From: an uncultured Jannaschia sp.
Lineage (GTDB): Bacteria > Pseudomonadota > Alphaproteobacteria > Rhodobacterales > Rhodobacteraceae
NCBI RefSeq assembly: GCF_947494025.1
Contig: NZ_CANLTQ010000019.1
Coordinates: forward strand, 1 to 54,036
Reading direction: 5' to 3'
DNA length: 54,036 nt
How positions within the stretch are numbered: the stretch's first letter is position 1; each line of letters begins with the position of its first letter. Positions 13,379 through 32,589 of this stretch are shown one piece after another. The translations under genes were made by a program, and so were the position numbers. The notes beneath the pieces were generated by a model, which saw nothing but the letters and a program-made list of their open reading frames with translations, made no database searches and was not told the origin of the DNA.

Positions 13379-13447
13379 GCGGCGCCGTCGGGCAAGCGCG
13401 GCGCGCAGCCGGTCTAGAGCGAAGCTGCGATCCAGGCCTGCCTGACC

Positions 13448-13486
13448 CCTGCCCGGCAGGTCATCACGCAGTGATGTCCCGAAAGG
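13448..13486 (-). repeat. palindromic mini-element, copy A (39 bp, inverted)
   Basis: Reverse-oriented copy of the element also found at 13910-13950 and 32180-32222. On the minus strand the first hairpin reads CATCAC-TGC-GTGATG, a perfect 6-bp stem, followed by CCTGCCGGGCAGG, itself a palindrome. It differs from copy C by four single-base gaps and several substitutions and sits exactly between codons of the IS5 transposase (CTGACC and ATCGAAG). Confidence 0.7.
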
Positions 13487-13909
13487 GATCGAAGTTCTCT
13501 TCGGCCTGCCGCTGCGACAGACGAACGGCTTCGTCGCGAGCCTGCTGAAGCTGGCAGGGCTCGACTGGCCAGTCCCGGCCTCTGTGCCGGCGGCAGAAGA
13601 TCCTGGCCCTGCAACTGCCCTATCGTGGCAGCGGCGGGCTGCTGCACCTGCTCGTGCCCTCCCGGGATCATGCTGCGCATGACCCTGCGGGGCAGCGGAT
13701 GGCGCCTATGACGGCCGGACCTGTCGCGACGCTATCGCCCGCCGGGGCGCCGACGCGAGCATCCCGCCGGGACGCAACGCCAAGCCGTGGAAGAAGGACA
13801 GCCCGGGGCGGGGGCGAGAAACGAGGCCCTGCGTGCGATCAAGCGCTTCGGCCGGGCGTTCTGGCGCAAGTGGAGCGGATCCCATCGCCGCAGCCGTGCG
13901 GAAACGAAG

Positions 13910-13950
13910 CCTCTCGGGACATTGCTGCGCAATGCCCTGCCGGCCAATGG
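13910..13950 (+). repeat. palindromic mini-element, copy B (41 bp)
   Basis: Starts CCTCTCGGGACATTGC and ends CCGGCCAATGG. First hairpin CATTGC-TGC-GCAATG is a perfect stem. It interrupts the IS5 transposase between the conserved GCGGAAACGAAG and ATGAACC, i.e. inside RAETK-MN. Confidence 0.75.
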
Positions 13951-14124
13951 ATGAACCGCCTGAAGCTGCTGGGTCAGAGGCTCGCCGCCCGCGACTCCGA
14001 TCGACAGACCGCCGAGCGTCAAATCCGCATCGCCATCCTCAACCGCTCCACCGCCCTCGGTATCCCCGTGACGCGGCCCGTCGGATGAAATCAGACGGGG
14101 AAAGGGAACCTTCAGCCTTCAGAC

Positions 14125-14142
14125 GCTTCGTGCAACAGCGCC
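14125..14142. repeat. IS5-type right terminal sequence
   Basis: GCTTCGTGCAACAGCGCC lies 36 bases after the transposase stop and shares 12 bases with 67-78. It marks the right boundary of the degenerate IS5-type element; the TetR-controlled cluster begins immediately after. Confidence 0.45.
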
Positions 14143-14197
14143 CTACCCGGCCCATCATCGACGCCGCACCGTGTTGACACTCCGCTTCCACTATCAT

Positions 14198-14214
14198 ACC
14201 GACCAACCGTCGGT
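14198..14214. promoter_or_regulatory. candidate TetR-family operator
   Basis: ACCGACCAACCGTCGGT is a perfect 6-5-6 palindrome, 21 bases before the GTG start of the TetR gene. A TTGACA at 14174-14179 upstream could be a -35 element, though a well-spaced -10 is not obvious. Autoregulation of the whole cluster is the natural reading. Confidence 0.6.
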
Positions 14215-14235
14215 TTTTAAGGTTGGAGCGATGCG

Positions 14236-15048
14236 GTGGATCACGACGGCGACTCCCGCACCCAGATCAATCTGCAGTCCAAGCGGGTCCGCCTGGCGCG
14301 GGACATGCGACGGTCGCAGATCCTCGACGCCGCGCAGGCGCTGTTCGTCGCGCGCGGCTGGGACGCCGTGACCATCGCCGACGTGCTGGCCGAGGCGGGC
14401 ATCTCGAAGGGCGGCTTCTACCACCACTTCTCCGCCAAGGAGGATCTGCTCGACGCCTTGGTGGAGCGCTTCACCGAGCGGGCGATGGACGGCACGGCCG
14501 GGGCGCGGGAAGCTGAAGGCGACGCACTGGCACGCTTCAACACATTCGTCGACGCGTCGAACCGGTGGCGGGCCGAGCACGGACCCGAGCTGCGCTTCTT
14601 CCTCGACGTGATGCTGCAGCCGGGCAACGAGACGCAGTTCGCGCGCATCAACGCCGCCTCGGCGGAGGTCACGCTGCCGGTCCTGCGCGGGCTGATCGAG
14701 GAAGGCGCGTGCTCCGGGCGCTTCGATGTTCCCGACGCGGGGCTAGTGGCGGAAACGATCCTCGCCCTTGGGCATGGCCGCCGCGCGGCGCTGCGCGCGG
14801 CCGTGAAGGCGACCGACGCGGGCGATCTTGACGCCGCCGCGCTGACGCTGGAGGCGCGGATGGCGGGCGAGGCCCGGCTGATCGACCGGCTGCTGGGCCT
14901 GCCGCCGGGCAGCGTCGTGCTTTCGGAGGCGGGCAAGCACCGCGAGATGCTGGCCGCCATTGCCGCGCCGTGCGGCGACCGACGACCGCGGGCACCGAAA
15001 CCAACCCGGACACCGAAACCAGGCAGCGAAAGGAGACCCCCATGCTGA
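14236..15048 (+). CDS. TetR-family transcriptional regulator
   Basis: 270 aa with a TetR DNA-binding domain near residues 25-70: RSQILDAAQALFVARGWDAVTIADVLAEAGISKGGFYHHF; the rest is an alanine-rich ligand-binding domain, with an unusual basic proline-rich tail (RRPRAPKPTRTPKPGSERR). GTG at 14236 is the longest start; ATG near 14305 (MRRSQIL) is a possible alternative. It is the first gene of a co-directional cluster with a STAS-like protein, SDR and an HlyD/RbbA/YhhJ exporter, and its end overlaps the next start by seven bases. By analogy with CecR in front of ybhGFSR it probably represses the exporter; the ligand is unknown. Confidence 0.85.
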   Translation: MDHDGDSRTQINLQSKRVRLARDMRRSQILDAAQALFVARGWDAVTIADVLAEAGISKGGFYHHFSAKEDLLDALVERFTERAMDGTAGAREAEGDALARFNTFVDASNRWRAEHGPELRFFLDVMLQPGNETQFARINAASAEVTLPVLRGLIEEGACSGRFDVPDAGLVAETILALGHGRRAALRAAVKATDAGDLDAAALTLEARMAGEARLIDRLLGLPPGSVVLSEAGKHREMLAAIAAPCGDRRPRAPKPTRTPKPGSERRPPC

Positions 15049-15806
15049 CCGTCAAGGAACTGAAACCGAACGTCTACGAGCTGACGCTGAAGGGCGTCGT
15101 CGACAAGACGGACATCGAGACTATGGAGCGGGAGTTGACGCCTGCGCTCAAGGGCGACGGCCCTCTAAGCCTGATCCTGCGCGCGGAGGAGTGGCGCGAC
15201 ATCACCGCCGACGCCATGGCCGCCGACATGCGCTTCGAGTTCGGCCTCCTGCCGCAATGGGCGAAGATCGCCCGGATGGCCGTCGTCACCGACCTGCAGG
15301 CATTCGAGGCGCTGATGCGGTGGGTCGACCCGATCGTGCCGATGATCCACATGCGCTCCTTCCCCGCCTCCGAGGCCGCGGCGGCCGAGGCCTTCGCGTC
15401 GGACCTGCCGGACCGCGCCGCCGCCGCGGACGGTTCGGGCATCCGGCTCCTGTCGGACGGCTCGGACGGGCTGGTCGCCTTCGAGGTGACGGGCCGGATC
15501 ACGAAGTCGGACGTCGACGCCGTCTTCGCGCCGCTGGAGGACGTGATGCAGGGCGACCGCAAGGTCGGCGTCCTGGCGAAGTTCAACGACTGGGACGGGT
15601 TCGACCCCGGCCTCTTCACGGATGCCGGCGGAATGATGGGCTCCAAGATGGGAATGGCGGGCCACATGACGCGCTACGCTGTCGTCGGCGCGCCCGGCTG
15701 GATGCGGGGCATGGTGTCGGCCATGGCGCCGATGATGCCCTTCGAGATGCGCAGCTTCGAGGCGTCCGATGCCGCGCAGGCCGAGGCCTGGGCCCGCGCG
15801 GGCTGA
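15042..15806 (+). CDS. tandem SpoIIAA/STAS-like domain protein
   Basis: 254 aa with two similar halves. Residues 1-120 (LTVKELKPNVYELTLKGVV to LMRWVDPIVPMIHMRSFPASEAAAAEAF) and 130-254 (IRLLSDGSDGLVAFEVTGRITKSDVDAVFAPL to MMPFEMRSFEASDAAQAEAW) share the order beta strand, DI/DV, W-D/W-R, then a final MR-SF-AS-AA-AEA segment, typical of SpoIIAA-like (DUF-type STAS/CRAL-TRIO) proteins. No enzyme motif or membrane segment is seen. AAAGGAGA precedes ATG 15042; the start overlaps the TetR stop, implying coupling. Function in the cluster is unknown; a membrane-associated lipid- or regulator-binding role is only speculation. Confidence 0.75.
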   Translation: MLTVKELKPNVYELTLKGVVDKTDIETMERELTPALKGDGPLSLILRAEEWRDITADAMAADMRFEFGLLPQWAKIARMAVVTDLQAFEALMRWVDPIVPMIHMRSFPASEAAAAEAFASDLPDRAAAADGSGIRLLSDGSDGLVAFEVTGRITKSDVDAVFAPLEDVMQGDRKVGVLAKFNDWDGFDPGLFTDAGGMMGSKMGMAGHMTRYAVVGAPGWMRGMVSAMAPMMPFEMRSFEASDAAQAEAWARAG

Positions 15807-15886
15807 ACGACAACGGTTCGCCGCCTCGCGGCGCGGCGCGGCGAACCGTCCGACCACATCGGACGCGTGGCCACGGAGGCACGGGA

Positions 15887-16656
15887 ATGGGACGTTTGCA
15901 GGACGGGATCGCCCTCGTCACGGGCGGCGCGGCGGGGATCCGGCTGGAAACGGCGCGGCTCTGCCTGGCCGAGGGCGCGCGGGTGGCGCTGGTGGACTCG
16001 TGCGTCGCGGATCTCGCGCGGCGACCGCCGATCCGGACGGCGGCGCGGACGTGCTGACGATCACGGCGGACGTGAGCGGAGAGGAGGACACCCGGCGCTA
16101 CGTCTCGGAGACGGTTCGGGCGTTCGGGCATATCGACGTCCTCTTCAACAACGCCGGGATCGGGGGCCGTGTGGTCCCGCTAACCGAGCGGAGCGTCGAG
16201 GACTTCGACCGCGTGATCGCGGTGAATGTGCGGAGTGCGTTCCTGAGCTTGAGGCAGGTCCTCCCGGCCATGAAGAAGGGGCGGGCCGGCAGCGTCGTCA
16301 AGATGTCGTCCATCGCCGGGCTGAAAGGCAGCCCGAACGTCGCGCGCTACATTCCCTCCAAGCACGCCGTCGTGGACTTGACCCGTGCGGCGGCGGTAGA
16401 GGCGGCGTCGTTCGGCGTGCGCGTCCACTCGGTCCACCCCTCCCCGGTCGATACGCGGATGATGCGGTCGCTGGAGGCGCAGTTTGACCCAGATCATGGT
16501 GACGCGGCGAAGCGCGGGCTAGTGTCACAGACACCGCTCGGCCGCTACGGCCGGTCCATGGACGTGGCGCAGTTGGCGCTGTTCCCCGCCCCCGACGCGT
16601 CGCGCTTCGTCACCGGGGCGCGATATGCGGTCGGCGGCGGCATGGCCGCGACCTGA
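15887..16656 (+). pseudogene. short-chain dehydrogenase/reductase with one frameshift
   Basis: The 5' part (MGRLQDGIALVTGGAAGI) and the 3' part from about 16020 (ADVLTITADVSGEEDTRRYV to FVTGARYAVGGGMAAT) are in different frames; together they make a normal SDR of about 255 residues. The 3' frame has the NNAGIGG motif, catalytic Ser in KMSSIAG and Tyr-x3-Lys in YIPSKHA. In the 5' part the third glycine of the TGxxxGIG motif is Arg (GIRLETA). The shift lies near 16010-16025. A sequencing indel would restore the frame but not the glycine. Confidence 0.75.
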
Positions 16657-16683
16657 CCGCCCCAAAAGATTGGAGCTCGCTTG

Positions 16684-17709
16684 ATGAAACATTTCCGCCT
16701 CGCCTTCGGCGCCCTCGCCGTGCTGGCCGCGATCGGCGCGGTGGCCTGGTACGTCTGGGATCGGAACACCGGCGGCCTGCCCGCGGGCATCGCCGCGGGC
16801 AACGGCCGGATCGAGGCCGATCAGATCGACGTGGCGACCCGCACGCCGGGCCGCGTGGCCGAGATCCGCGTGGCCGAGGGCGCGTTGGTCGAGGCGGGCG
16901 AGGTGCTGGCGGTGATGGACACGCGCGAGCTGGAGGCGCAACGCGCGCGGGCGCGGGCCGACGCCGCCCGTGCGGCGAGCCAGGTCGAGGAGGTCGCGGC
17001 CCTGATTGCACAGCGCCGGGCCGAACTGGCGTTGGCGGAGGACGAGTATGCGCGCGCCCGGACGCTGGCCGAGCGCGGCGTCAACGCGGCGTCGGTGGCC
17101 GAGCAGCAGGCCACGCGACGCGCCTCCGCCGGGGCGGCGCTGGACGCGGCGATCGCGCAGCTCCACACCGCCGAGCGCGGGGTCGAGGCGGCCGAGGCGC
17201 TGGTCGGCCAGTACGAGACGCAGATCGAGGACGCGACGCTGACCGCGCCGATCTTCGGCCGCGTCCTCTACCGCCTCGCGCAACCGGGCGAGGTACTTGC
17301 GGGCGGCGGCAAGGTCCTGACGCTGCTCGACCTGTCCCAAGTCTATATGGAGGTTTTCCTGCCCGCGAACGAGGCCGCGACCACGGCGATCGGCGCCGAG
17401 GCGCGCATCCGGCTCGACGCCGTCCCCTACGCGATCCCCGCCTATGTCAGCTTCGTCTCGCCCGAGGCGCAGTTCACGCCCAAGCAGGTCGAGACCGCCG
17501 ACGAGCGCGAAAAGCTGATGTTCCGCGTCAAGGTCCGCGTGCCCGAGGAGCTGGTGCGCGCCTATATCGATCAGGTGAAGACCGGGCTGCGCGGCGAGGC
17601 CTTCATCCGCCTGCTGGGCGATGAAGGGGCACCGTGGCCCGCCGGCTTCGTCGGCCAGCCGATCCCCGAGGACGCGTTGCCGCCCGCTGCCGCAGCCGTC
17701 GCGGACTGA
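16684..17709 (+). CDS. yhiI: HlyD-family periplasmic adaptor (YhiI/YbhG type)
   Basis: Membrane-fusion protein of an ABC exporter, 341 aa. One N-terminal transmembrane segment (residues 5-23), then a lipoyl/barrel half ([35 protein letters not shown]), a long alanine/glutamate-rich coiled coil (about 75-170, with [17 protein letters not shown]), the second lipoyl half ([34 protein letters not shown]) and a beta-barrel domain. A TTG lies directly before ATG 16684; ATG is preferred. Its stop overlaps the rbbA start (TGATG), so adaptor and ATPase are co-translated. Order and length match E. coli yhiI-rbbA-yhhJ. Confidence 0.87.
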
Positions 17710-20433
17710 TGCCGGTGGACCGCGACGCACCCCCGGTCGCCCGCCTGGGCGGCGTCACGCATCGCTACGGCAAGGTGCCGGCGCTCGACGACGTGACGTT
17801 GGATTTGCCGGCCGGCCGGATGCTGGGCCTGATCGGTCCCGACGGCGTGGGCAAATCCACCCTGCTCGGCCTCCTGTCGGGCGCCCGGAAGATTCAGGCG
17901 GGGAATGTGGAGGTGCTAGGCGGATCGATGGCCGACGCGGCGCATCGGGAGGGGGTCTACACCCGCGCGGCATACATGCCCCAGGGGCTGGGCAAGAACC
18001 TCTACCAAGAACTCAGCGTCTTCGAGAACCTCGACTTCTTCGGCCGCCTCTTCGGCCACGGCGCAGCCGAGCGCCGCCGCCGGATCGACCGCCTCCTGCG
18101 TGCCACCGGGCTCGACCCGTTCCCCGACCGGCCCGCGGGCAAGCTGTCGGGCGGGATGAAGCAGAAGCTGGGCCTGTGCTGCGCGCTGATCCACGATCCC
18201 GACTTCCTGATCCTCGACGAGCCGACCACCGGCGTCGATCCGCTCTCACGGAGGCAGTTCTGGGATCTGATCGACGACATCCGCGAGGACCGGCCGGGGA
18301 TGAGCGTTCTGGTCTCGACCGCCTATATGGAGGAGGCCGAGAGGTTCGACTGGCTGGCGGCGATGGACGCCGGCCGCATCCTGGCCACCGGCACGCCGGA
18401 CGAGCTGCGTGTGCGCACCGGGGCGGACGACCTGGAGGCGGCGTTCGTCTCTCTCCTGCCGCCGGGCAAACGCCGTGCGGAGGGGGCGCTGGAGATACCC
18501 CCGCGCGCGCCGCGGGAGGGCGAATCCGCGATCGTCGCCAAGGGCCTTACCCGGCGCTTCGGCGATTTCACCGCCGTGCGCGACGTCAGCTTCGAGATCG
18601 AGCGAGGCGAGATCTTCGGCTTCCTCGGCTCGAACGGGTGCGGAAAGACCACCACGATGAAGATGCTGACGGGCCTCCTGCCCGCCTCCGAAGGCGAGGC
18701 GTGGCTGTTTGGCGAGCCGGCCGATGCGAACAACATCGAGACCCGCCGGCGCGTCGGGTTCATGTCGCAGAACTTCTCGCTCTGGGGCGGCTTGACGGTC
18801 CGCGAGAACCTCGCGCTTCACGCGCGGCTCTTCCGTATCGACCGCGCGGAGATCGCCCCGCGGATCGACGGGCTTCTCAACGAGTTCGACCTCGTCCCCC
18901 ATGCGGGTGCAATCACGGGCGACCTGCCGCTGGGGCTCAAGCAGCGGCTGTCGCTGGCCTGCGCGATCATCCACCGCCCCGACATGCTGATCCTCGACGA
19001 GCCGACCTCCGGCGTCGATCCGGTCGCGCGCGACGAGTTCTGGGCGCTGCTGATCGGTCTGTCGCGACGCGATCACGTCACCATCTTCATCTCGACGCAC
19101 TTCATGAACGAGGCGATGCGCTGCGACCGCATCTCGCTGATGCATGCGGGCGAGGTGCTGGTCTACGACACCCCGCAGAACCTGGCGGCCGAGGATGGCT
19201 CGACCTCGCTGGAGGAGACCTTCATCCGCTACATCGAGAGCGCCATCGGCGAGCCCGCAGACATCGGCGCCGCGACATTGGCGCCCGCCGCGGACGCGCC
19301 CCGGCGGCCGCAGCCTCGGCCGCCTTCTTGCCGTCAGTCGGCGCGAGATGCTGGAGGTGACGCGCGACCCGATCCGGCTCGCCTTCGCGTTCCTTGGCTC
19401 GATGGTGCTGATGCTGATGTTCGCCTACGGCATCTCGTCGGACGTCGAGGACCTGCGCTTCGCCGCCTTCGACCAGGATCGCACCCCCGAGAGCCGCGCC
19501 TACCTCGCCAACTTCGAGGGCTCCCCCTACTTCATCGAGCTGCCGCCCGTCGCGAGCCTCGACCAGCTCGAGACGCGGATGGCGGCGGGCGAGGTGACGT
19601 TGGCGCTGGAGATCCCATCGGGCTTCGGCCGCGCGGTCACGACCGGCGAGCCGACGCGTGTCGCCGCCTGGATCGACGGGGCCAACACCCTGCGCGCCGC
19701 CACCATCGAGGGCTACGTCCAGGGCGCGCACGCGACCTTCCTCGGCGACCGCGCCACGGCGGCAGGCCTCTCCGGAGCGGCCGGCCCGGTTGTCGAGATC
19801 GAGCCACGCTACCGCTACAACCCCAGCTTCGAGAGTATCTACTCGATGGCGCCCTCCGTGCCCGCGATCCTCCTGATGCTGTTCCCCGCCATCCTCATGG
19901 CGGTCTCCATCGCGCGCGAGCGCGAGATCGGCACGATCACCAACTTCTACGTCACGCCGACCTCGAAGCTAGAGTTCCTGCTCGGCAAGCAGCTTCCCTA
20001 CGTCGCCGTCGGCTTCGTCAACTGGCTGATCCTGACGGCGATGGCGGTGCTTCTGTTCGGCGTGCCGCTGACCGGCAGCGCGTCGGCGCTGGCGCTCGGG
20101 GCGCTGACCTACGTCTTCGCCGCGACCGGATTCGGCCTGATCGTCGCGGTCTTCACCCGCAGCCAGGTGGCGGCGGTCTTCGCCACCATGATCCTCGCCA
20201 TGCTGCCTACCGTGCAGTTTTCGGGCCTCAACCAACCGGTCTCGACGCTCGAGGGCGCGGCGCGGGTCATGGGGCAGCTCTGGCCCACCAACTACTTCAT
20301 GCAGATGAGCGTGGGCGCCTTCAACAAGGGGCTCGGTTTCGGCGCGCTCGGGACGAACATCCTGCTGATCGCGGCCTTCGTTCCGGTCTTCGTCGGCACC
20401 GCCGCGCTGCTGCTCCAGAAGCAGGAGCGGTGA
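17709..20433 (+). pseudogene. rbbA: RbbA-type ABC-ABC-permease fusion with a frameshift
   Basis: The first frame (17709 to about 19290) encodes two ABC ATPase domains: Walker [13 protein letters not shown] then [11 protein letters not shown], signatures [10 protein letters not shown] and [10 protein letters not shown], Walker [14 protein letters not shown] and [13 protein letters not shown], ending [12 protein letters not shown]. The second frame (about 19290-20433) encodes the ABC-2 permease: RRLLA-like segment, [47 protein letters not shown] and LLLQKQER. In E. coli RbbA both parts form one protein of about 911 aa; here a +1 shift lies between 19265 and 19325 near a CCCC tract. The first frame stays open far downstream but reads as nonsense there. 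Could be a true frameshift, a sequencing indel, or a split gene restarting at ATG 19348. Confidence 0.8.
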
Positions 20434-21554
20434 TGCGCGCCCTCGGCAACATCCTGTGGCTCACCGGCAAGGAGCTGCGGACGCTGTGGCGCGACTTCGT
20501 GCTGCTGCTGCTCGTCATCTACTCCTTCGGGCCGGGCATGTATGTCGAGTCCAACGCCGCCGGCGAGACGATCAGCAATGCCGCCGTCGCCTTCGTGGAC
20601 GAGGACCGATCCTCCCTGTCGCGCGGCCTGCGCACCGCGCTCTACCCGCCCTGGTTCCTGGAGCCGCGCCTGATCGAGGCGGACGACGTCGACCGCATGA
20701 TGGACTGGGGCGAGGTCACCTTCGTCGTCGTCGTCCCGCGCGGGTTCGAAGCCGACGTCCGGGCAGGCCGCACGCCCGAGCTTCAGATCAACATCGACGC
20801 GACCAAGACGCAGGCCGCGGGCGTCGGCACCGGCTACCTCACCGCGATCCTGACCGAGGAGGCGCAGCGCTTCGCCGCCCGCGCCGACGTCACGGCCGAC
20901 CCGCCCATCGACCTGGTGGTACGGCGCGCTTTCAACCCCGCCGGCAACAACGTCTGGTTCGCGGCGATCGGGGGATTGCTGAATTCGCTTTCCATGCTGA
21001 CGATCGTGCTGGTCGGCGCCGCATTGATCCGCGAGCGCGAGCACGGCACCATCGAGCACCTGCTGACGATGCCGGTCACGCCGATCGAGATCGCGCTGGC
21101 CAAGGTGCTGGCGAATGGCGGCGTGATCTTCGCGGCCTTCACCTTCTCGCTGTTCGTCGTGGTCGAGGGCGCGCTCGGCATTCCCTTCGCGGGCTCGCAG
21201 GCGCTCCTGCTGGCCGGGACGGCGATCTACGTCTTCGCCGCCGCCGCGATCGGCCTGCTTTTGGGCATCGTGGCGCGGACCATGGCGCAGTTCGCGCTGC
21301 TCATCATGCTCGTCATCATGCCGATCATGATCCTGTCGGGCGGCATGACCCCGGTGGAGAGCCAGCCCGCCTGGCTGCAGCCCATCACCTGGCTGCTGCC
21401 CTCGCGGCACTACATGGCCTTCGCCGAGGCGATCTTCTACCGCGGCGCGGGCCTGAGCATCGTTTGGGCCGACTTCCTCTGGACCTTCCTGCTCGGCGCG
21501 GCCTTCCTCGCGCTCGGCCTCGTCCTCTTCCGCCGCTCGGTCGCGGGGGGCTGA
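20433..21554 (+). CDS. yhhJ: ABC-2 type permease (YhhJ/YbhR type)
   Basis: 373 aa inner-membrane permease. An N-terminal helix ([15 protein letters not shown]) is followed by a large extracytoplasmic domain ([35 protein letters not shown]) and five hydrophobic segments from residue about 175; the conserved loop [20 protein letters not shown] is diagnostic of this group. It starts at ATG 20433 in a TGATG overlap with the rbbA stop. With yhiI and rbbA it forms a tripartite exporter; substrates of this class are drugs or other amphiphiles in characterised relatives, not determinable here. Confidence 0.88.
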
Positions 21555-21557
21555 CGG

Positions 21558-22613
21558 ATGCGGCCCCTCCCCCTTGCCGCGCTCCTGCCCGCCGCATGCG
21601 CTTCGCGCGCCCCGCTCGTCCTCGCCCCGGACGCGCCGGGCCGCGTTCACGGGATCCTCGTCGCCGCGACGCGCGCGGAGGCGGGACAGGGAGCCGACCT
21701 ACGGGCGCTACGCCGTCGCCGTGCCGCCCTGTCACGTGCCGGGCACCGTCGCTTGGCCGGACGCCACGCCCGATCCGGCAACGGACATCACCGTGTCGAA
21801 TGCCGCGCTCACGGACGACCGCGCGGCGTTCCGCACCGGGATCGACCCGCGACCGTCGGAGCGGCCCCGGGGGCGGCGCGAGGTCGTCGTGTTTGTCCCC
21901 GGCTACAACGCGAACTTCGCCGAAGAGCTCTACCGCTTCGCGCAGACGGTCCACGACTTTGGGACGACCGTCTTGCCGATCCTCTATTCCTGGCCGCCGG
22001 CCGCGCCGGCGGGCGACTACCTTTACGATCGCGACAGCGTGCTCTTCGTCCGTGGCGGGCTGGAGGCGCAGATCGACCTCGTGGCCGACCTGGGGTGGAC
22101 AGCGTCACGTCGGTCGCCCCTTCCCTCGGCTCGCAACTCCTGAGGGAGACGCCGCGGACCCGAGCGCTGCGTACAGGTGGCGCGCTTTGGCCCGAACTGG
22201 GCCACGTCGCCCTGATCTCGCCCGACGTCGAAGCGGGCATGTTCCGCCAGCAGGTCGCGCCGATCAAGATGTCGCCGGAACCATTCGTGATCTTCGCCTC
22301 CGCGCGAGATCGGGCGCTGCGCCTGTCCGAATGGCCGAGCGGGTCCGGCCGACTGGGCGGGATCGACGACGTCGCCGCGTTGTCGGGCCCCGACGTCACC
22401 GTGATCCACACCGGCGCCGCTGCGGCCCGAGGCGCGCACCACCTCACGCCGGTCGCGTCGCCCTGGATGATCTCGGTCTTGCGGGGGCTGCAGGCGAACG
22501 AGCGCTTCGCCTTGGGCCGGCCGGAGCCCTCGGCGGCGCTGCCGATCCGGATCGTGGCCAGCGGCAATGCCTTGGTCCTGGTGATCGCGCCACCCACGGC
22601 GCTCACCCGCTGA
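21558..22613 (+). pseudogene. DUF900-family alpha/beta hydrolase, two frameshifts
   Basis: Three consecutive pieces in alternating frames make one DUF900 lipoprotein-like hydrolase of about 340 residues. Piece 1 (21558 to about 21685) has a signal-like start MRPLPLAALLPAACAS and ILVAATRAEAG. Piece 2 (to about 22095) has TYGRYAVAVPPCHVPGTVAWPD, VVVFVPGYNANFAEELYRFAQ and SWPPAAPAGDYLYDRDS. Piece 3 has VAPSLGSQLL, corresponding to the nucleophile elbow (usually H-S-x-G; here His is Pro), then ISPDVEAGMFRQQ and FASARDRALRLS. It starts 4 bases after yhhJ and ends in a TGATG with the MscS frame, so it belonged to the operon. Confidence 0.72.
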
Positions 22614-22630
22614 TGCGAAGGAGTATGCCG

Positions 22631-24367: not shown

Positions 24368-25328
24368 GATTCCGGTGCCTCGGATCGGCCCGGGGCAGGT
24401 TCTCGTGCGCGTCCGGGCGTCCGGCGTCTGCCACACCGACCTGCACGCGGCGGAAGGCGATTGGCCGGTGAAGCCGCACGTGCCGTTCGTGCCGGGCCAC
24501 GAGGGGGTCGGCGAGGTCGCGGAGATCGGCGCGGGGGTCACGCATCTGAAGGAAGGAGACCGGGTAGGCGTGCCTTGGCTGCACACGGCCTGCGGCCGTT
24601 GCGAGCATTGCGTCGGCGGATGGGAAACGCTGTGCGACACGCAGCAGAACACCGGTTACAGCGTCGACGGGGCCTATGCCGATTACGTCGCCGCGGATGC
24701 CAACTTTGTCGGCGTCATTCCGGCCGGCCTGGACTGGGGCCCGGCTTCGCCGGTGCTCTGCGCGGGCGTGACGGTCTACAAGGGTCTCAAGGAGACCGAG
24801 GTGCGGCCGGGTCAGTGGGTCGCGATCAGCGGCATCGGCGGACTCGGGCACATGGCCGTGCAATACGCGAAGGCCATGGGCATGAACGTGGTGGCCGTGG
24901 ACGTGGCGGACGACAAGCTCGACCTGGCCCGCGCGCTCGGGGCCGACGAGGTAATCAACGCCAAGGAGGTCGACCCGGCAAAGGAAGTCTCGTCGAACCT
25001 GGGCGGCGTGCACGGGGCGCTGGTGACGGCGCCGTCGCGCCCGGCCTTCGCGCAGGCCGTGGGCATGCTGCGCAAGCATGGCACTCTGTCCCTCGTCGGA
25101 ATTCCGCCGGGCGATTTTCCCCTTCCGATCTTCGAGGTCGTCCTCAAGCGGCTGACGGTCCGTGGCTCCATCGTCGGGACGCGGCTGGACCTCGCCGAGT
25201 CGCTGGCCCTTGCTGCGGAGGGCAAGGTCGAGACGGAGTTCGCCTGGGACGAGCTGGACAACATCAACGCCATCTTCGACCGCATGCGCGAGGGCAAGAT
25301 CGAAGGTCGGGTCGTGCTGCGGATGTGA
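24306..25328 (+). CDS. adhP: zinc-dependent alcohol dehydrogenase
   Basis: 340 aa, the usual length of AdhP-type medium-chain dehydrogenases. Catalytic zinc ligands are seen in ASGVCHTDLHAAEGDW and PGHEGVGEV and the later VLCAGVTVYKG; the structural zinc cluster is CGRCEHCVGGWETLC. The NAD site is GIGGLGHMAVQYAKAMG. It oxidises primary alcohols or reduces aldehydes in the cytoplasm. CAAGGAG precedes ATG 24306, and the start lies within the 3' end of the MscS gene, so it is the last gene of the TetR cluster and could be co-regulated. Confidence 0.93.
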   Translation: METKMKAAVVTEFGRPLDIREIPVPRIGPGQVLVRVRASGVCHTDLHAAEGDWPVKPHVPFVPGHEGVGEVAEIGAGVTHLKEGDRVGVPWLHTACGRCEHCVGGWETLCDTQQNTGYSVDGAYADYVAADANFVGVIPAGLDWGPASPVLCAGVTVYKGLKETEVRPGQWVAISGIGGLGHMAVQYAKAMGMNVVAVDVADDKLDLARALGADEVINAKEVDPAKEVSSNLGGVHGALVTAPSRPAFAQAVGMLRKHGTLSLVGIPPGDFPLPIFEVVLKRLTVRGSIVGTRLDLAESLALAAEGKVETEFAWDELDNINAIFDRMREGKIEGRVVLRM

Positions 25329-25393
25329 TCGTTCGGATTCCTGCGGTTCGGAATGACCTCGATCCTCGGAGGCGACCAGCCCCCGTTTGAACG

Positions 25394-26860
25394 TCAGAGC
25401 ACGACAAGGAGGAGGGCGCCGCCCGCCAGAGCGTAGAGGGCGCAGGCCGGCGCGGTGCGGGCGAGGATGTCGCCCTCGCGCGCCACGAGGCCCACGGTCG
25501 CGCTGCCGGCGATGATGTTGTGCGGCGCGACGACGTTGCCGATCGCGGCGCCGAAGCCCTGCGCCGCCAGCATCGCCACCGGCGGCAGCGACAGCGCGGC
25601 GGCGCTCGAGACCTGGAACTCGCTGAAGAGGATGTTCGAGGCCGTCGCCGAGCCGGTGACGAAGGTGCCGAGAACTCCTACCGCGGGCGCCGCCAGCGGC
25701 CAGAGCGGCCCGGCGCGCGCCGCTGCCCCGGCGAGGGCGTCGATCATGCCGGAATGGACCATGACCCGGCTGAGCGCGAGCATCGCGAGAAGCGCCAGCG
25801 CCACCGGTCCCAGTCGACGCAATGCGGCGCCGAGGGCCGGCGCGACCTCGGCGCCGCGCCCCGTCGCGATGGCGCCGATCAGAAGTCCTGCGAAGAGCAG
25901 CGTGCCGGGGTGGTAGAGCGGCTGGAACGCGCCCGAGAAGACCCCGGCGAAGGACCAGTCGAGGGCGAGACCGCCGAGCCCTTCGCGCAGCGGCGGCACG
26001 AGGCGAGTGGCGAGCACCAGCGCGAGGATCAGCATGTAGGGCACGAGGTCGCGCCCGAGGCCGCCGAAACCGCCGTTCTTGCCCGACCGGTGCCGGAGCA
26101 CGGTCGCGAAGACGGCGAGGCCCGCGAGCGCGCCGCCGAGCGACGGCAACTCGGGCCCGGCAAGCGCCGCGATCGCCAAGAAGGGGACCAGGAACGACGC
26201 CGCCGCGAAGCCGGTCCAGCCGAGGTCGCGGCGGGTCAGCGGTCCGTCGCCCGCGAGCCGCATCACGGCCAGGAGCAGGAGCGTGCCGAGCGCGGCATGC
26301 AGCGCTGCGGTCGCCCGCGCGATCTCGGTCGCGGGCAGGCCGGTGATCTCGGCCTGCGTCAGCGCCGGCGTGCCGACCGCGCCGAACGAGACCCCAGCGG
26401 CGTGGCCCAGAAGCGCCAGCGCCACCGCCCGGACCGGAGGGAAGCCGATTCCGACAAGCAGCGGCGCGGCGAGGGCGACCGGCGTGCCGAACCCCGCCGC
26501 GCCCTCCATGAAGAGGCCGAAGAACCAGGCGATCAGAACCGCTTGCAGCCGCCGGTCGTCGGTGAGCCCAGCCAAGGCATCACGGATGCGGTCCACCGCG
26601 CCGGTCGCGCGCTGGAACTCGTAGAGCGCCAGCGCCGGCAGGATGATCCAGAAGATCACGGCCGTGGAATGCAGCGCCTCGGCGGCGAGGCCCAGCCCCG
26701 CCTGCGTTTCGGGCACCGGTCCGGCCAAGTCGAAGGCGGCAAGCGCCACGACGGCCGCAGCAGCGAGCCCCGCGACCCCGGCCCGCGCCGCCGACCAGCG
26801 CAGCCCCGCCATCCCGACGAGCACCACCGCAAGCGGTGCGAGCGCAAGGAGCGCGGGCAC
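25394..26860 (-). CDS. lldP: L-lactate permease family transporter
   Basis: 488 aa, membrane protein with about 12-14 hydrophobic segments. Family patterns of LctP/LldP: FGLFMEGAAGFGTPVALAAPLLV, LGHAAGVSFGAVGTPAL, GVLGTFVTGSATASNILFSEFQ and NVVAPHNIIAGSATVGL. Proton-linked uptake of lactate or glycolate is the known role. A GTG start at 26860 is used. It lies 27 bases downstream of the D-lactate dehydrogenase gene on the same strand, indicating a lactate operon, and is convergent with adhP. Confidence 0.87.
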   Translation of the reverse strand: MPALLALAPLAVVLVGMAGLRWSAARAGVAGLAAAAVVALAAFDLAGPVPETQAGLGLAAEALHSTAVIFWIILPALALYEFQRATGAVDRIRDALAGLTDDRRLQAVLIAWFFGLFMEGAAGFGTPVALAAPLLVGIGFPPVRAVALALLGHAAGVSFGAVGTPALTQAEITGLPATEIARATAALHAALGTLLLLAVMRLAGDGPLTRRDLGWTGFAAASFLVPFLAIAALAGPELPSLGGALAGLAVFATVLRHRSGKNGGFGGLGRDLVPYMLILALVLATRLVPPLREGLGGLALDWSFAGVFSGAFQPLYHPGTLLFAGLLIGAIATGRGAEVAPALGAALRRLGPVALALLAMLALSRVMVHSGMIDALAGAAARAGPLWPLAAPAVGVLGTFVTGSATASNILFSEFQVSSAAALSLPPVAMLAAQGFGAAIGNVVAPHNIIAGSATVGLVAREGDILARTAPACALYALAGGALLLVVL

Positions 26861-26887
26861 CCGTTCAGCCGGACCGGCCGACGGCGC

Positions 26888-27889
26888 TCATGCCCGATGC
26901 GCCTCCGCGCGGACTTCGTGCGGCACGCGGCCGTCGCGCTCGAAGGCGTCGATGTTGGCGATTGTCGTCTCGGCGATGGCCTGCAGCGCCTCGCGCGTGA
27001 AGAAGCCCTGATGCCCGGTGACCAGCACGTTGGGAAAGGTCAGCAGCCGCGCGAACACGTCGTCGGGGATGAAGCGGTTCGACAGGTCCTCGAAGAACAG
27101 ATCCCCCTCCTCCTCGTAGACGTCGAGGCCGAGCGCGCCGATCGCGCCGCGCTTCAGCCCCCGGATCAGCGCGCGGGTGTCCACGACCGCGCCGCGCGAG
27201 GTATTGATGAGCATGACGCCGGGCTTCATGCCCGCGATCGCCGCGTCGTCGATCAAGTGATGCGTGGCGGGCGTCAGCGGGCATTGCAGGGTGACGATGT
27301 CGCTTCGCCGCAGCAGCTCGTCCATCTCGACATAGTCGACGCCCATCGCCTCGCAATCGGGGTTCGGCGTCGGGTCGTGCGCCAGCACTTCGCAGCCGAA
27401 GCCCGCCATGATCCTGGCGACGACGCTGCCGATGAGGCCGGTGCCGACGACACCGACGGTCTTGCCGTGGAGATCCATTCCCATCAGCCCGTCGAGCGCG
27501 AAGTTGCCCTCGCGGACCCGGTTGTAGGCGCGATGGATGTGCCGGTTGAGCGTCAGGATCAGCGCCACGGTGTGCTCGGCGACGGCATGCGGCGAATACG
27601 CCGGCACGCGGGCCACCGTCAGCCCCGCCGCCGCGGCGGCCTCGAGATCGACGTGGTTGAACCCGGCCGAACGCAGCGCGATCAGACGAACGCCCGCCTG
27701 CGCCAACCCGCCGACGACCTCGGCGCCGAGGTCGTCGTTGACGAAGGCGCAGACCACCTCCGCCCCTTCGGCGAGCCGGACCGTCTCGGGCGTCAACCGC
27801 GCCTCGAGGAAGCGCATTTCGTGGCCGCCCCTGGCTCGGCCGAGAAAGGCCTCGTCGTGCGGCTTGCTGCTGAAGACGGCGACGCGCAT
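26888..27889 (-). CDS. ldhA: D-lactate dehydrogenase, LdhA type
   Basis: 333 aa 2-hydroxyacid dehydrogenase that reduces pyruvate to D-lactate with NADH. Seen: [19 protein letters not shown] (NAD motif), catalytic Arg in [47 protein letters not shown] (a motif found in fermentative LdhA) and [13 protein letters not shown] with the Glu and His. Start 27889 has GGAGGG upstream. It is transcribed divergently from the GH65 gene and together with the downstream lactate permease forms a fermentation/lactate exchange unit. Confidence 0.92.
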
Positions 27890-28015
27890 CGACAGGTCCC
27901 TCCCTTCCCCTCGCGGACCTTGCGGCCGGGTGCGTCCGACGTCAACACGGCGGGGTCTGGCCCGCGTCGATCGCGCCGCTATAGTCCCGGCCGCAAGAGC
28001 TTTCCGGAGGAGCCA

Positions 28016-30421
28016 ATGCTGCGCCCGCGCCGATACCCGCCCCGTGACGTGTTTCCGGTCGATCCCTGGGCGCTCACCGCGACGCGGTTCGACGCCGATC
28101 TGCTTGAGCGCTATCCCGGCCAGGCCGAGACCATGTTCGCGATCTCGAACGGCTATCTGGGCGTGCGCGGCACGATGGACGAAGGTAGCCCGGTCGAGGA
28201 GCCGGGCACCTACCTCAACGGGTTTTACGAGACGCGGCCGATCACCTACGGCGAGAGCGCCTACGGCTTCCCGAAGGTCGGCCAGAGCATGCTCACCTGC
28301 CCCGATGGCAGCGTCATCCGCCTGACCGTCGACGACGAGCCGTTCGAGCTTTCCCGCGCCGAGGTTCTGGGCTTCTCGCGCCGGCTGGACCTGAGGCGCG
28401 GCGTGCTGACGCGCGACGTGACCTGGGCGACGCCGCGCGGACACCGGTTGCGGCTCAGGACGACGCGGCTGGTGTCGCTGGCGATGAAGCACGTGGCCGC
28501 GGTTCACTGGAAGCTCGTGCCCGAGGACGACGTCGACCTGCTGATCTCCTCCGATCTCGTCGAGCGCGCGCCGCTGCCGGTCGAGGACTTCGACCCGCGC
28601 CTCGCCGATGCGCCCGGCGCGCGGGTGCTGAACCCGACCGGCACCGAATGCGGCGGGCTTCGTGCGGTCATGGGTTACGTCACCGGCGGCTCGCGCCTCG
28701 CGCTCGGTTGCGGCATGGACCACCGGCTCGAGACGGCATGTCCGCACGACGCCGGCGCCGCCTGCGGCGCGGAGGGCGCCACGGTCACGATCCGCGTCGC
28801 CGGCAAGGCGGGCGAGCCGATCCGCTTGACCAAGTTCGTGGCCTACCACCACGCCCCCAAGGAAGCGGAGGATACACGCGCCGCCGCTGGCCGCAGCCTC
28901 GATCACGCGATAGCGACCGGGTTTCCGGCCCTTCTCGCCCGCCAGGAGGACGAGGTCGGTGACTTCTGGCAACGCGCCGACGTCGAGATCGACGGCGATC
29001 CGGCGACGCAGCAGATGGTACGCTGGAACCTGTTCCAGTTGATGCAGGCCTCGGCGCGCGTCCACGGCCACGGCATAGGTGCCCGCGGTCTGACCGGGCG
29101 CAGCTACGAGGGGCACTACTTCTGGGATACCGAGATCTACGTCCTGCCATTCCTGATCTACACCGCGCCCGACATCGCTCGCGCCGTGCTGAAGTTCCGC
29201 TACGACATGCTGCCAAAGGCCCGCGCGCGCGCGACCGAGCTGGGGCATCGCGGCGCGACCTTCCCATGGCGGACGATCAACGGCGACGAGGCGTCGGCCT
29301 ATTACGCCGCCGGCACCGCGCAATACCACATCAACGCTGACATCGCCTATGCGCTCGGGAAGTATGTCGAGGTCACCGGCGATGATGACTTCATGGTCCG
29401 CTACGGCGCAGAGATCCTCGTGGAGACCGCACGATTCTGGCTCGATCTCGGCTTCTTCTCGAAGCGCCGCGACGGACGGTTCTGCATTAACGCCGTAACC
29501 GGGCCCGACGAATACAATGCCGTCGTCGACAACAACTACTTCACCAACCTGATGGCGCAGGCGAACCTGCGCCAGGCCGCGGCGGTGGTGGCGGCGCTCG
29601 ATGCGCCGGCGCGGGCGGTCCTGGCGCAGCGCACGGGACTGGCCGAGGGCGAGCCTGCAGAATGGGTCGAGGCCGCGGACCGGATGTACCTGCCCTTCGA
29701 CGAGCGGCTTGGCGTCCACCCGCAGGACGACAGCTTCCTCGACAAGGAGGTCTGGGATTTCGAGAACACCCCCGACGAGCATTATCCGCTGCTGCTGCAC
29801 CACCATCCGCTGAACCTCTACCGGTCGCAGGTCATCAAGCAGGCCGACACGCTGCTCGCGATGTTCCTGATGAACGGGCGGTTCTCAGGCGAGGAGAAGA
29901 AGCGCAACTTCGACTATTACGACCCGATCACGACGCATGACAGCTCGCTTTCGGTCTGCATCCAGTCGATCATCGCAGGCGAGATCGGCTATCGCGCCAA
30001 GGCGTGCGACTACTTCCAGTTCGCCGCGGCGATGGATCTTTCCGACATCGGCGGCAACGTGAAGCACGGGGCGCACGTCGCCTCGATCGGGGGCACCTGG
30101 CTGGCGCTGATCTACGGCTTTGCGGGCCTGCGCGACGGCGGCGGCAGGATCGCCTTTCGCCCATGGCTGCCCGACGACTGGACGGGCCTGCGGTTTCCCC
30201 TGACGGTGCGCGGCCGGCACATCCGCGTCGCCGTGGGTCGCGAGACGACGATCTATCGTTTGGAGGCGGGGGAGCCGATCGAAATCTTCCACGACGGAGA
30301 GCCTGTACGCCTGAGCCCGCGGGAGCCGGAGGCGCGACGGCGTACGCCCGCAACCGCCAAGGCGGAACCTTGCCTCGGACACGGCGCCTCGAACCCAGCC
30401 GTTCCCGGAACGGCGATGTGA
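28016..30421 (+). CDS. GH65 disaccharide phosphorylase (maltose/trehalose/kojibiose type)
   Basis: 801 aa, cytoplasmic. It would split an alpha-linked glucose disaccharide with phosphate to beta-glucose-1-phosphate and glucose. N-terminal super-sandwich domain ([21 protein letters not shown]), then the alpha/alpha barrel with [45 protein letters not shown], catalytic acid Glu499 in [28 protein letters not shown] and the phosphate loop THDSSLS. GGAGGAG lies five bases before ATG 28016. It is convergent with the beta-phosphoglucomutase gene just 4 bases away, the standard partner. Which disaccharide is used cannot be told from sequence; the last 40 residues are low-complexity. Confidence 0.9.
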
Positions 30422-30425
30422 GACC

Positions 30426-31163
30426 CTAAGCGACGGCGACCTCGGAGAGATCACCCACCACGACGTCGGCGCCCGCCGCCCGCAGCGCGTCGACCCGAGC
30501 GTCATGCCCGACGCCGATGACGCGGGCAAAGCCCGCGCGGCGTCCAGCCTGCACGCCCGCGACCGCGTCTTCGAACAGCGCGGCACGGCCCGCGCCGACG
30601 CCGAGCCGTCGGAGGGCCTCGACGAAAATCGCCGGATCGGGCTTGCCGGGCAGATCATTGCGGGACGCTACGACCCCATCGACCCGAACCTCGACGAACC
30701 GGGCGAGCCCGGTCGCGTCGAGCACCGCCTCCGCGTTCGCGCTCGACGAGGCGACGGCGACCCGGATGCCGGCCCCGCGCAGCGCCGCGAGCAACGCCTC
30801 CGCCCCCCGCAGCGGTGCCGCGTCCCGCACCAGCCGCGCCCGCACCAGTTCGTTCTTGCGTCGCGCCAGCCCGGCGACGGTCGCGGTACCCGGCGGATCG
30901 TCCGTCGCGCCCTCAGCCAAAACGATGCTGCGGGATGCGAGAAAAGCCCGAACGCCCTCCAGACGTGGCCTGCCATCGACATAGGCGAGGTAATCGGCGC
31001 GGGTGAACTCGGGCAGCGGGTCCGGCCGGTCACAAAGAAACGCGTCGAACATCTCCTTCCAGGCCGCCTCGTGCAGGCTCGCCGTATCGGTCAGCACGCC
31101 GTCGAGGTCGAACACCACAGCGTCGAGGTCGTTGCGCGAGAGCTGCAAGGCCTGTTTGCCCAT
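30426..31163 (-). CDS. pgmB: beta-phosphoglucomutase (HAD superfamily)
   Basis: 245 aa; converts beta-glucose-1-phosphate made by the neighbouring GH65 enzyme to glucose-6-phosphate. HAD motif I is VVFDLDGVLTDTA (nucleophile and acid/base Asp), motif II VAVASSSANAEAVL, motif III lysine in DLPGKPDPAIF and motif IV LFEDAVAGVQAG. Cap residues TRADYLAYVDGRPRLEGV are typical of pgmB. The start at 31163 is chosen for the GAGGAG eight bases upstream; the frame is open 11 codons further. Confidence 0.9.
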   Translation of the reverse strand: MGKQALQLSRNDLDAVVFDLDGVLTDTASLHEAAWKEMFDAFLCDRPDPLPEFTRADYLAYVDGRPRLEGVRAFLASRSIVLAEGATDDPPGTATVAGLARRKNELVRARLVRDAAPLRGAEALLAALRGAGIRVAVASSSANAEAVLDATGLARFVEVRVDGVVASRNDLPGKPDPAIFVEALRRLGVGAGRAALFEDAVAGVQAGRRAGFARVIGVGHDARVDALRAAGADVVVGDLSEVAVA

Positions 31164-32040
31164 GAAGTTGCTCCTCAGCTTCGTATTGCTCTCCAACCGA
31201 CCCGGGAACCGGACACGCCTCGTCTGAACCGTCCCGCGTTTGTCGAAGGTGATTTCGGTTGGTTTCTACGCCGCCATGCCGGCGGTCTCCAGCGTGTCGT
31301 AGCAGGCGGCTTCGGCTTCGGCCGGCGGGACGTGCCCGATGGGCTCCAGCAGGCTGCGGGTGTTGAACCAGTCGACCCATTCGAAAGTGGCGAGCTCGAC
31401 GGCCTCGAACGAGCGCCAGGCCCGCGTAGGTAAATGACCTCGGTCTTGAAGGGGCCGATCACGGTCTCGGCGAGTGCGTTGTCGTGACTGTCGCCGACGC
31501 TGCCGACCGACGGCTCGATCCCTTCCTCCGCAAGCCGCCCCGTGAACCGATTGGCCAGGTATTGCGCGCCGTGGTCCGTGTGTGACGAGCCCTGCGCCTC
31601 TTGCAGGCTGACAGTCGTGGATCGCCTGCTTCAAGGCGTCGAGAACGAAGCTCGCGGTCGCACTGCCGCTGACGCGCCATTCCACGATCCGACGGGCGTA
31701 GGTGTCGATGACGAAGGCCACATAAACGAAACCGGCTCACGCCGCCAAGGAGGTGACGTCGCTCACCCACAGCCTGTTGGGCGCCGGGGCCTGAAACCGT
31801 CGGTTCACCTTGTCGCGCGGGCATGACTGGGTTGGATCGGGAATAGTCGTCCTGATCCGCTTGCCGCGCACGGCGTCCTGCAATAATCCCATGGCACGCA
31901 TCAGCCCCTCGACCGTGCATCGAGCAACGGCGAAGCTCTCGCGTCGTAGCTGCCGGCAGACCTTCCGGGCGCCGTGGAGCCGAAATTCTCGACGTGGCCG
32001 CGCGCGATCTCGGCCCGCAGTTCCCGGCCCGCCTCGCACG

Positions 32041-32078
32041 GTCGGACAGTCGGACAGTCGGACAGTCGGACAGTCGGG
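32041..32078. repeat. 8-bp tandem repeat, about 4.5 units
   Basis: Four copies of TCGGACAG plus a partial unit in a row, inside the IS3 orfB remnant where a normal copy would have one unit (coding RLSDRARR). The expansion of three units adds 24 bases, i.e. is in frame by itself. Confidence 0.85.
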
Positions 32079-32179
32079 AAGGATCGTCCCGCCGCGCTCG
32101 ATGCGCATGATACGTCGACGGGGCGATCGGCAGCAGCCGGCAAATCGGCTCGACCCCGTAGAGTCCGCGATGGTCGTCC

Positions 32180-32222
32180 CCTCTCGAGACATTGCCTGCG
32201 GCGATGCCCTGCCGGGCAATGG
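32180..32222 (+). repeat. palindromic mini-element, copy C (43 bp)
   Basis: Starts CCTCTCGAGACATTGCC and ends GCCGGGCAATGG. First hairpin CATTGCC-TGC-GGCGATG (one mismatch), second GCCC-TGCC-GGGC. On the coding strand of orfB it lies between the codons for MVAFI and DDHRGLYGV, shifting the frame. Two single-base gaps separate it from copy B. Confidence 0.78.
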
Positions 32223-32589
32223 ATGAACGCGACCATCGCTTCAACGGGCGGTCGAGCTCCATCCCGCTGCCCGGCAGCGGCCTGCTGGCAAACTGCGAGA
32301 GGGGGGACAGAATATGCCGACGCTTTGCGCAGGATCCCGTTGGCTTGACGCAGCTCACGGTTCTCACGCTCAAGCTGTCTGATCCGATCCCGCTCCTCGC
32401 TGGTCAGTCCAGGCCGGAGCCCGTCGTCGCGCTTGGCCTGCCGTACCCAATTGCGTCGCGTCTCACCGCTGCACCCGATCTTCACCGCGATCGACTGGAT
32501 CGCGGACCACCGGCTCCCATGCGCCCCGCGGTGCTCCTGCACCATCCGAACCGCCCGCTCCCGAACCTCCGGCCATCGCGGGGCCGTCG

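Follow-up and report, generated by a model that had tools for sequence, protein, structure and literature searches.

A short hairpin repeat inside transposase genes of Rhodobacteraceae: fold, insertion point and probable mobility in trans

How tiny hairpin repeats that carry no gene move is a general question, and it is raised by a contig of an uncultured Jannaschia sp. of the Rhodobacteraceae (NZ_CANLTQ010000019.1), which was analysed over its whole length of 54,036 nt and is called the window below. A sequence-only reading had noticed three copies of a short hairpin element, at 13448-13486, 13910-13950 and 32180-32222. All three are real, with coordinates off by about one base, and have E-values from 4e-14 to 6e-11, but the number was too low, as a search of the window with the full covariance model found five copies, the additional two at 13657-13697 and at about 32264-32303. 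The model was built from 15 copies including all three that were noted first, so that the independent support comes from further copies in the same genome and in its relatives. On balance, we think that the unit is probably a non-autonomous mobile DNA hairpin that resembles repetitive extragenic palindromes (REPs) and is moved in trans. This reading draws on features of the sequences themselves, i.e. the fold and its covariation, precise insertion, a preference for transposase genes, the occupation of one and the same nucleotide in many branches of a tree of IS5-type genes, near-identical insertion sequences (ISs) with hairpins inside, and the apparent use of the hairpin as a landing site by an IS110-family element.

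Fold and distribution of the hairpin unit

The unit has the layout N1-CC-TCTC-GGG-A-(6-bp variable stem, 3-nt loop)-CCC-TGCC-GG-N49-CARYG, and a typical core is N-CC-TCTC-[GGG-A-CATTGC-TGC-GCAATG-CCC]-TGCC-GG-N. It comprises an outer stem of 3 bp, a 4x4 loop, an inner stem of 9 bp with a bulged A, and a tail of 5 nt. The length is 41 nt in 118 of the 151 parsed copies. Covariation was quantified in an alignment of 124 matches (104 of them distinct), the rows of which were fitted to the covariance model. Across the 12 pairs, 92.9% of the cells are base-paired, compared with 75.5 ± 0.6% in shuffled alignments and 33-46% in controls with a slid register, and 164 cells show double changes versus 34 after shuffling. 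The same stem covariation was obtained with a second alignment (A2) that was made without structure. The covarying stem had been seen in the sequence-only reading, and the proposal that the fold is what is maintained is well supported by these values.

The covariation is strong in the inner stem, with paired switches from GGG/CCC to GGC/GCC and GTG/CAC and with changes on both sides of the six inner pairs in many copies, and weaker in the outer stem. For the outer pair N1-N49, the 124-row alignment gave CG 69, GC 6, AU 4, UG 4 and unpaired 18, and the count per site class in strictly parsed copies was CG 70, GC 3, AT 1, TG 2 and unpaired 5. In the 124 rows, some left ends are inserted IS110 sequence, which contributes mismatches. 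There is hardly any variation in the other two outer pairs, and the case for an outer stem therefore depends on few events. The second, GC-rich hairpin of the sequence-only reading is better interpreted as closing this outer stem (NCC...GGN); a short local second hairpin is predicted in some folds. The R box of integron attC sites, GTTRRRY/RYYYAAC, was absent from the column counts of the alignment, and no Rfam family reached its gathering score in the window.

The genome of origin has 66 places that match the model at E<=1. A search of 40 genomes at E<=0.01 revealed copies in 20, i.e. in the own genome, in 16 of 19 further genomes from its genus, in three of four from other genera of the family, and in none of 16 from outside the family. 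In a family sample with one genome per genus, copies were found in 75 of 198 genomes at E<=0.001; few candidates were scored per genome, and the per-genome counts are lower bounds. In a class-wide sample of 240, matches were found in five genomes; apart from the own genome, one is from the same family and three belong to different families. A fixed 40-letter form of the unit occurs on 47 named contig stretches, 46 of which bear what we take to be Rhodobacterales names, while the label of the remaining one names an actinomycete, Enemella evansiae (the label is taken as given). Matches were present in 112 plasmid records, 87 of which belong to Pseudosulfitobacter, Sulfitobacter, Leisingera or Phaeobacter. 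The sequence-only reading would have taken a lack of further copies, or copies confined to orthologous positions, as evidence against mobility; many copies were found in related genomes, including at non-orthologous places. One genome consisting of two contigs (G048) has at least 14 weak matches (best E 4.6e-5), perhaps a divergent subfamily, and at another locus (L091, 1416-1544) two units of a divergent form lie in tandem, 85 bases apart. The open-access literature that was searched, which leaves most subscription papers outside, contained no published description of the family, and the main text of PMC12306157 does not contain the words Rhodobacter, Paracoccus, Roseo or Leisingera.

Insertion point, host genes and recurrence

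The flanks of the units were compared with homologous IS copies that lack the unit (73 rows listed in full). Empty copies of the IS5 and IS3 types, which the sequence-only reading had named as informative, do exist, and the empty homologues are about 67-91% identical among the rows listed. At these homologous empty sites the insertion is precise and no target duplication is seen. A strict pattern was matched by 151 of the 198 hits, and target preferences were calculated from these, grouped into 81 site classes with one member each. The values were 59 for C at position -1, 72 for G at +1, 61 for A at +2, 72 for T or C at +3, and 55 for G at +4. A separate sample of 47 copies gave C at -1 in 41, G at +1 in 41, and A at +2 in 37. 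The unit is inserted directly 5′ of GAY, usually as C^GAYG, so that on the opposite strand 5′-CRTC^ abuts the 5′ tail of the unit.

The great majority of the copies are located within transposase genes or next to them. Transposase homology was found within 350 nt of 168 of the 198 hits, which include copies of one and the same IS, and on both sides of 109. For the own genome alone, such genes contain or adjoin 58 of 64 hits. In the separate sample, 35 of 47 copies adjoin transposase homology, compared with 46 of 900 control positions at the same loci. Nine loci among the other 12 were searched further. Four yielded Mu-transposase C-terminal/IS21, rve, IstB or IS110 proteins, two a phage integrase, one LytB, and two no match; the last three of the 12 have the same flanks as one of the two loci without any match. 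Hosts and neighbours span at least eight IS types, i.e. IS3, IS5, IS66, IS256, IS6/IS240, IS110, IS630 and IS21 (Pfam and NCBIfam assignments, some of them below curated cut-offs), and both orientations relative to the host gene occur (36 versus 19 site classes). A few copies are near ordinary genes, encoding DUF2169, ParB, antitoxin-like helix-turn-helix (HTH) and peptidase proteins. At one such locus (L129, about 1501-1545), the unit stands beside a DUF2169 gene and not an IS.

Several ISs are present in near-identical copies that include the hairpins. The D. shibae plasmid pDSHI04 has three copies of a 0.92-kb IS5-type element, 99.9-100% identical, with two units each. A Phaeobacter-like genome (G110) contains an IS3-type element with five units in two copies of 99% identity, together with two deleted forms with four or three units. 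A single IS3-type element with six units was observed in genome G018 (locus L095, 1501-2500).

The recurrence of the unit was analysed in the ISPko1-type IS5 gene, in which 36 copies map to only ten points. Although the gene has 34 CGAY places, two Asp codons, which we take to be catalytic from the Asp-Asp-Glu (DDE) pattern of the IS5 family, hold 10 and 9 of the 36 copies. A tree was calculated from 41 transposase rows kept out of 58 (14 redundant or fragmentary rows were removed by hand and three by a length filter); L225 was left unlabelled, labels were assigned manually to three rows from P. porticola, and a single chimeric hairpin of the window was counted at both Asp sites. The tree was built from short and in part broken rows, some labels depend on where a contig or a match ends, and the bootstrap had not settled. 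The following values should be read in this light: at the first Asp site, 18 rows have the unit and 20 do not, and the tree requires 13 changes compared with 12.9 for shuffled labels, at least six of them forced by well-supported branches, while a single clade is rejected by the approximately unbiased (AU) test (p-AU 1e-6); at the second Asp site, with 11 rows with and 23 without the unit, nine changes are required, at least three of them on well-supported branches. Among same-site pairs with flank identities of 0.8-0.9, the units are identical in 10 of 13 pairs, which are not independent of one another. At flank identities of 0.55-0.7, none of 60 pairs has identical units, and the stems often differ. 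The recurrence at one nucleotide fits repeated insertion. Spread by gene conversion between IS copies was considered and rejected, as 66 pairs, some of them extending to the end of the IS, showed no increase in flank identity with proximity to the unit. The idea that RTG in the tail serves as a translation restart before the Asp codon was also rejected, the phases being mixed (15/15/6).

Means of movement

An element assigned to the IS110 family by Pfam (DEDD_Tnp_IS110 and Transposase_20) is found inside hairpins. At ten places in the own genome its right end was located, and in all ten it is followed by CTCGGGA of the hairpin; four of the five left ends found were read, and each comes after CCCTCT. 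A full copy in genome G012 (locus L107, leader at about 386-584) has a 207-nt leader that contains CCCCTCT, with TCCCGAG 17 nt further along; both sequences have been kept in a relative of 73% identity in genome G018. A pairing rule for the target guides of bridge RNAs is given in PMC11208160, and by this rule CCCCTCT and TCCCGAG would fit as left and right guides for the hairpin. The IS110 element thus appears to be programmed to land in hairpins, and the hairpin, with IS110 inserted in it and with putative left and right guides that match it in the IS110 leader, looks like a bridge-RNA target. The result is a nest of three levels, IS, hairpin and IS110, in which a probably RNA-guided element is apparently adapted to a hairpin that itself resides in other transposons.

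Possible enzymes for the movement of the hairpin were sought among the HUH transposases. The sequence-only reading had suggested a REP-associated (Y1/HUH) transposase gene near some copies, and this expectation was not borne out: the own genome has no match to PF01797 (Y1), and neither have 63 of the 75 unit-bearing genomes of the family sample. Y1 genes occur in 18 of the 198 genomes of this sample, and 12 of the 18 carry the unit, so Y1 is enriched with the unit but not needed. Three of 33 scanned Y1 loci have copies nearby (L169, L293 and L184), two of them strong copies within about 0.6 kb. At L169 (genome G124), a strong copy (902-946) precedes the Y1 gene (1501-1860) by about 550 nt and a weak one (2009-2049) follows it after about 150 nt, in opposite orientation; setting aside the Y1 remnant at L293, this is the only one of the 33 loci with copies on both sides. 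At L293, strong copies are located about 520 and 1080 nt from the remnant, which has a weak copy on the opposite side, and L184 has a weak partial copy about 260 nt from the Y1 gene. The weak copy of L169 lies within an IS5 gene, and the strong copy of this locus adjoins IS110 homology. Of the two strong copies of L293, one has IS110 homology nearby and the other is, by our own reading, in IS3-like DNA. Because the copies lie in or beside other ISs, both loci are interpreted as mixed IS clusters. IS91-type Y2 genes were found in seven of 27 genomes, all with at least 10 unit copies, and five of the 27 without Y2 (G007, G009, G011, G017 and G110) also have at least 10 copies; general IS richness can explain the trend. 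Genome G110 has at least 20 unit matches and neither Y1 nor Y2, and a scan of the IS91 loci revealed no ends related to the unit. One hairpin unit lies inside a match to an IS91-type Y2 transposase (L305, 2465-2508, minus strand).

If the unit is indeed moved in trans, a single-strand reaction of the HUH type is our best guess, because the hairpin is bulged, the flanking motif is short, and no duplication is made. The moving form would be a folded single strand, which may be recognised via the bulged base and the internal loop. In E. coli REPs, the bulge is needed for recognition (PMC8266576). A trans-acting, HUH-like recombinase would cut and join at CRTC, as TnpAREP or an IS200 enzyme does with bulged hairpins. 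Insertion into transposase genes of ISs may be cheap, and the IS would carry the unit to new places, which could account for its persistence there.

Several points weigh against this reading. The nested fold is the predicted minimum in only two of four sequences as RNA and in one of four as DNA, and the folding energies are modestly better than those of shuffled sequences, with modest z-scores. The target statistics leave out 47 of the 198 hits, which do not fit the strict pattern. There is no candidate enzyme, given that Y1 is absent from the own genome and from most carriers. No near-identical pair of ISs with and without the unit was found, and the closest empty homologue listed is only 91% identical, so that recent movement is not shown directly. 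Lastly, repeated precise loss of the unit could produce the same pattern on the tree.

Other readings were compared with the same data. A more far-reaching one, which we regard as doubtful but worth keeping in mind, is that of a homing hairpin, i.e. a 41-nt non-coding unit that repeatedly finds conserved nucleotides, including catalytic Asp codons, in unrelated IS families by a single-strand mechanism; such a unit might parasitise transposons, or the host might use it against them, and it would itself serve as the landing pad of an RNA-guided IS110. It is unlikely that the hairpins no longer move, having entered a few ISs long ago and been inherited only within these while a structural constraint keeps the fold. 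The near-identical ISs with hairpins inside, a stem type that partly follows the site (e.g. TCATGC at the second Asp site), and the frequent identity of same-site units at 80-90% flank identity would all agree with it. Such a history is difficult to reconcile with units in or beside at least eight IS types, with different stem types at the same nucleotide of diverged IS5 genes, and with the 13 tree changes at the first Asp site, and a covarying stem has no evident reason in a passenger of broken genes. We rate somewhat lower the idea that a Y1 (IS200-type) transposase moves the unit, either in some genomes only or in a past from which it has since been lost. The presence of the unit in two thirds of the Y1-bearing genomes and near three of the 33 Y1 loci, with L169 flanked on both sides in opposite orientation, speaks in its favour; yet most carriers show no Y1, the copies of L169 are in or beside other ISs, and IS richness in general accounts equally well for the enrichment.

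The IS110-family recombinase with its bridge RNA might not only land in the hairpin but also move or copy it, which would give a role to the IS110 ends in hairpins (all right ends and the four left ends read) and to the leader sequences kept in the 73% relative. This seems improbable, as the IS interrupts the hairpin at CT, making the hairpin the target, as hairpin insertions show no repeated core dinucleotide, and as genome G017 has 18 copies and no match to the IS110 element. Homing of a short RNA into conserved codons in the manner of a mobile intron is very unlikely: conserved codons are occupied on many branches without co-conversion and a complete RNA fold is predicted for two of four sequences, but 41 nt is too small for any known self-splicing intron, and the unit occurs in both orientations to the host gene. 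We give the least credence of all to toleration of the unit in working transposase genes, through in-frame reading or translational bypass. Two IS256-type copies that are 15% diverged share an identical unit (L046, 1501-1547, minus strand; L047, 1501-1547, plus strand), with the insert in frame by our own count, open flanks, and differences mostly at third codon positions, and two inserts in a P. porticola IS3-type gene also keep the frame (own reading). Bypass or in-frame use was rejected as a general explanation, since most units, being 41 nt long, shift the frame; several host genes have other frameshifts or stops, and the third-position bias may predate the insertion. A mobile hairpin moved in trans remains the reading that we prefer.

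Copies in the window and known systems

The features of the window are compiled in Table 1, in which the hairpin coordinates are those of the covariance-model match minus the four target bases. Copy 1 is reversed relative to its IS5-type transposase gene and has an empty homologue at locus L105; copy 2 is inserted in the IS5 gene between ETK and M, with an empty homologue at locus L104; and the degenerate hairpin that faces copy 3 has one at locus L160. In the unit between copies 1 and 2, the left flank is that of the first Asp site and the right flank corresponds to the second; this unit therefore probably originated by recombination of two hairpins with loss of the DNA between them, i.e. it looks like a chimera made by deletion. 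A broken IS91-type Y2 transposase gene (12361-12777, minus strand) adjoins the hairpin-bearing IS5. A tandem repeat of the 8-base unit GTCGGACA is found beside the IS3 remnant at about 32041-32078, and a second IS5-type transposase gene (196-1122) contains two stops and, in the model search of the window, no hairpin unit.

Table 1. Hairpin units and associated transposase genes in the window
Feature	Position	Strand	Evidence
Hairpin copy 1, 41 nt, stem CATCAC/GTGATG	13447..13487	-	Model match 13443-13487, 54.9 bits
Hairpin, 41 nt, stem TCATGC/GCATGA	13657..13697	+	Model match 13657-13701, 53.6 bits
Hairpin copy 2, 41 nt, stem CATTGC/GCAATG, outer pair G-C	13909..13949	+	Model match 13909-13953, 68.1 bits
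Hairpin copy 3 in IS3-type DNA, 43 nt (2 extra nt in the loop)	32179..32221	+	Model match 32179-32225, 58.1 bits
Degenerate hairpin facing copy 3	~32264..32303	-	Model match 32260-32303, 23.1 bits, E 0.0019
Degenerate IS5-family (ISPko1-type) transposase gene, holds three units	~13325..14088	+	tblastn cluster, plasmid homologues; end is end of open reading frame
IS3-type transposase fragment (HTH_Tnp_1) beside copy 3	32228..32725	-	Pfam E 1e-4, 22.9 bits (curated cut-off 24.1)

The outer stem, the C^GAY target, the preference for transposase genes, the recurrence at one nucleotide and the targeting by IS110 were not part of the sequence-only reading. Its view of the unit as REP-like and shorter than a miniature inverted-repeat transposable element (MITE) agrees with the many unrelated places at which the unit was found. 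MITEs have terminal inverted repeats and duplicate their target site, whereas comparison with empty sites shows no duplication for the unit. With the ends of IS200/IS605 elements it shares a bulged hairpin, a short preferred target and the absence of duplication; however, it is a single hairpin instead of two subterminal ones, has no gene, and is not consistently accompanied by Y1. Mitochondrial hairpin elements and GC clusters are also hairpin-forming, tens of bases long, and held to be mobile with no enzyme known. To our knowledge the same is true of the small dispersed repeats of cyanobacteria. Both belong to other genomes and have other sequences, and we know of no nesting in transposase genes for either. 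The Rickettsia palindromic elements are palindromic, alphaproteobacterial and located in protein genes, but they are larger and in frame, whereas our unit is mostly 41 nt and shifts the frame.

The closest likeness to be weighed is that to REPs and REPINs (REP doublets forming hairpins). These are short, repeated, imperfect palindromes, some with a bulge, and are landing sites of IS110-family elements (PMC3733652), and a palindrome of about 20-40 nt with high copy number and conserved fold has its counterpart here in about 41 nt, 66 copies and a covarying stem. The differences are the outer stem with its 4x4 loop and the location mainly in or beside transposase genes instead of mostly between genes. 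The GTAG tetranucleotide of the RAYT-associated GTAG REPs is not beside the unit, which has the flank C^GAYG and the tail CARYG, and no Y1 gene is consistently flanked by its copies. CGTC REPs, which predominate in alphaproteobacteria and have no dedicated transposase, are described as having 8-9 bp stems that almost always begin with AT, loops of 4-5 nt, and a CCA-like tail (PMC3733652); the stem and tail of our unit differ, and its flanking CRTC is target sequence and not a fixed tag. IS621, ISPa11 and ISPpu10 are likewise IS110-family elements in hairpin repeats, RNA-guided where tested (PMC11208160, PMC11187229 and PMC1525189), but the landing hairpin described here is of another family and is itself mainly inside other ISs. 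With its many copies, exact insertion point, empty sites, recurrence at one nucleotide and complete carrier genomes, the family offers a handle on how such repeats move. As it is REP- and IS200-like and yet differs in the defining features tested, i.e. GTAG, an associated Y1 and an extragenic place, it would represent a new form of short mobile palindrome.

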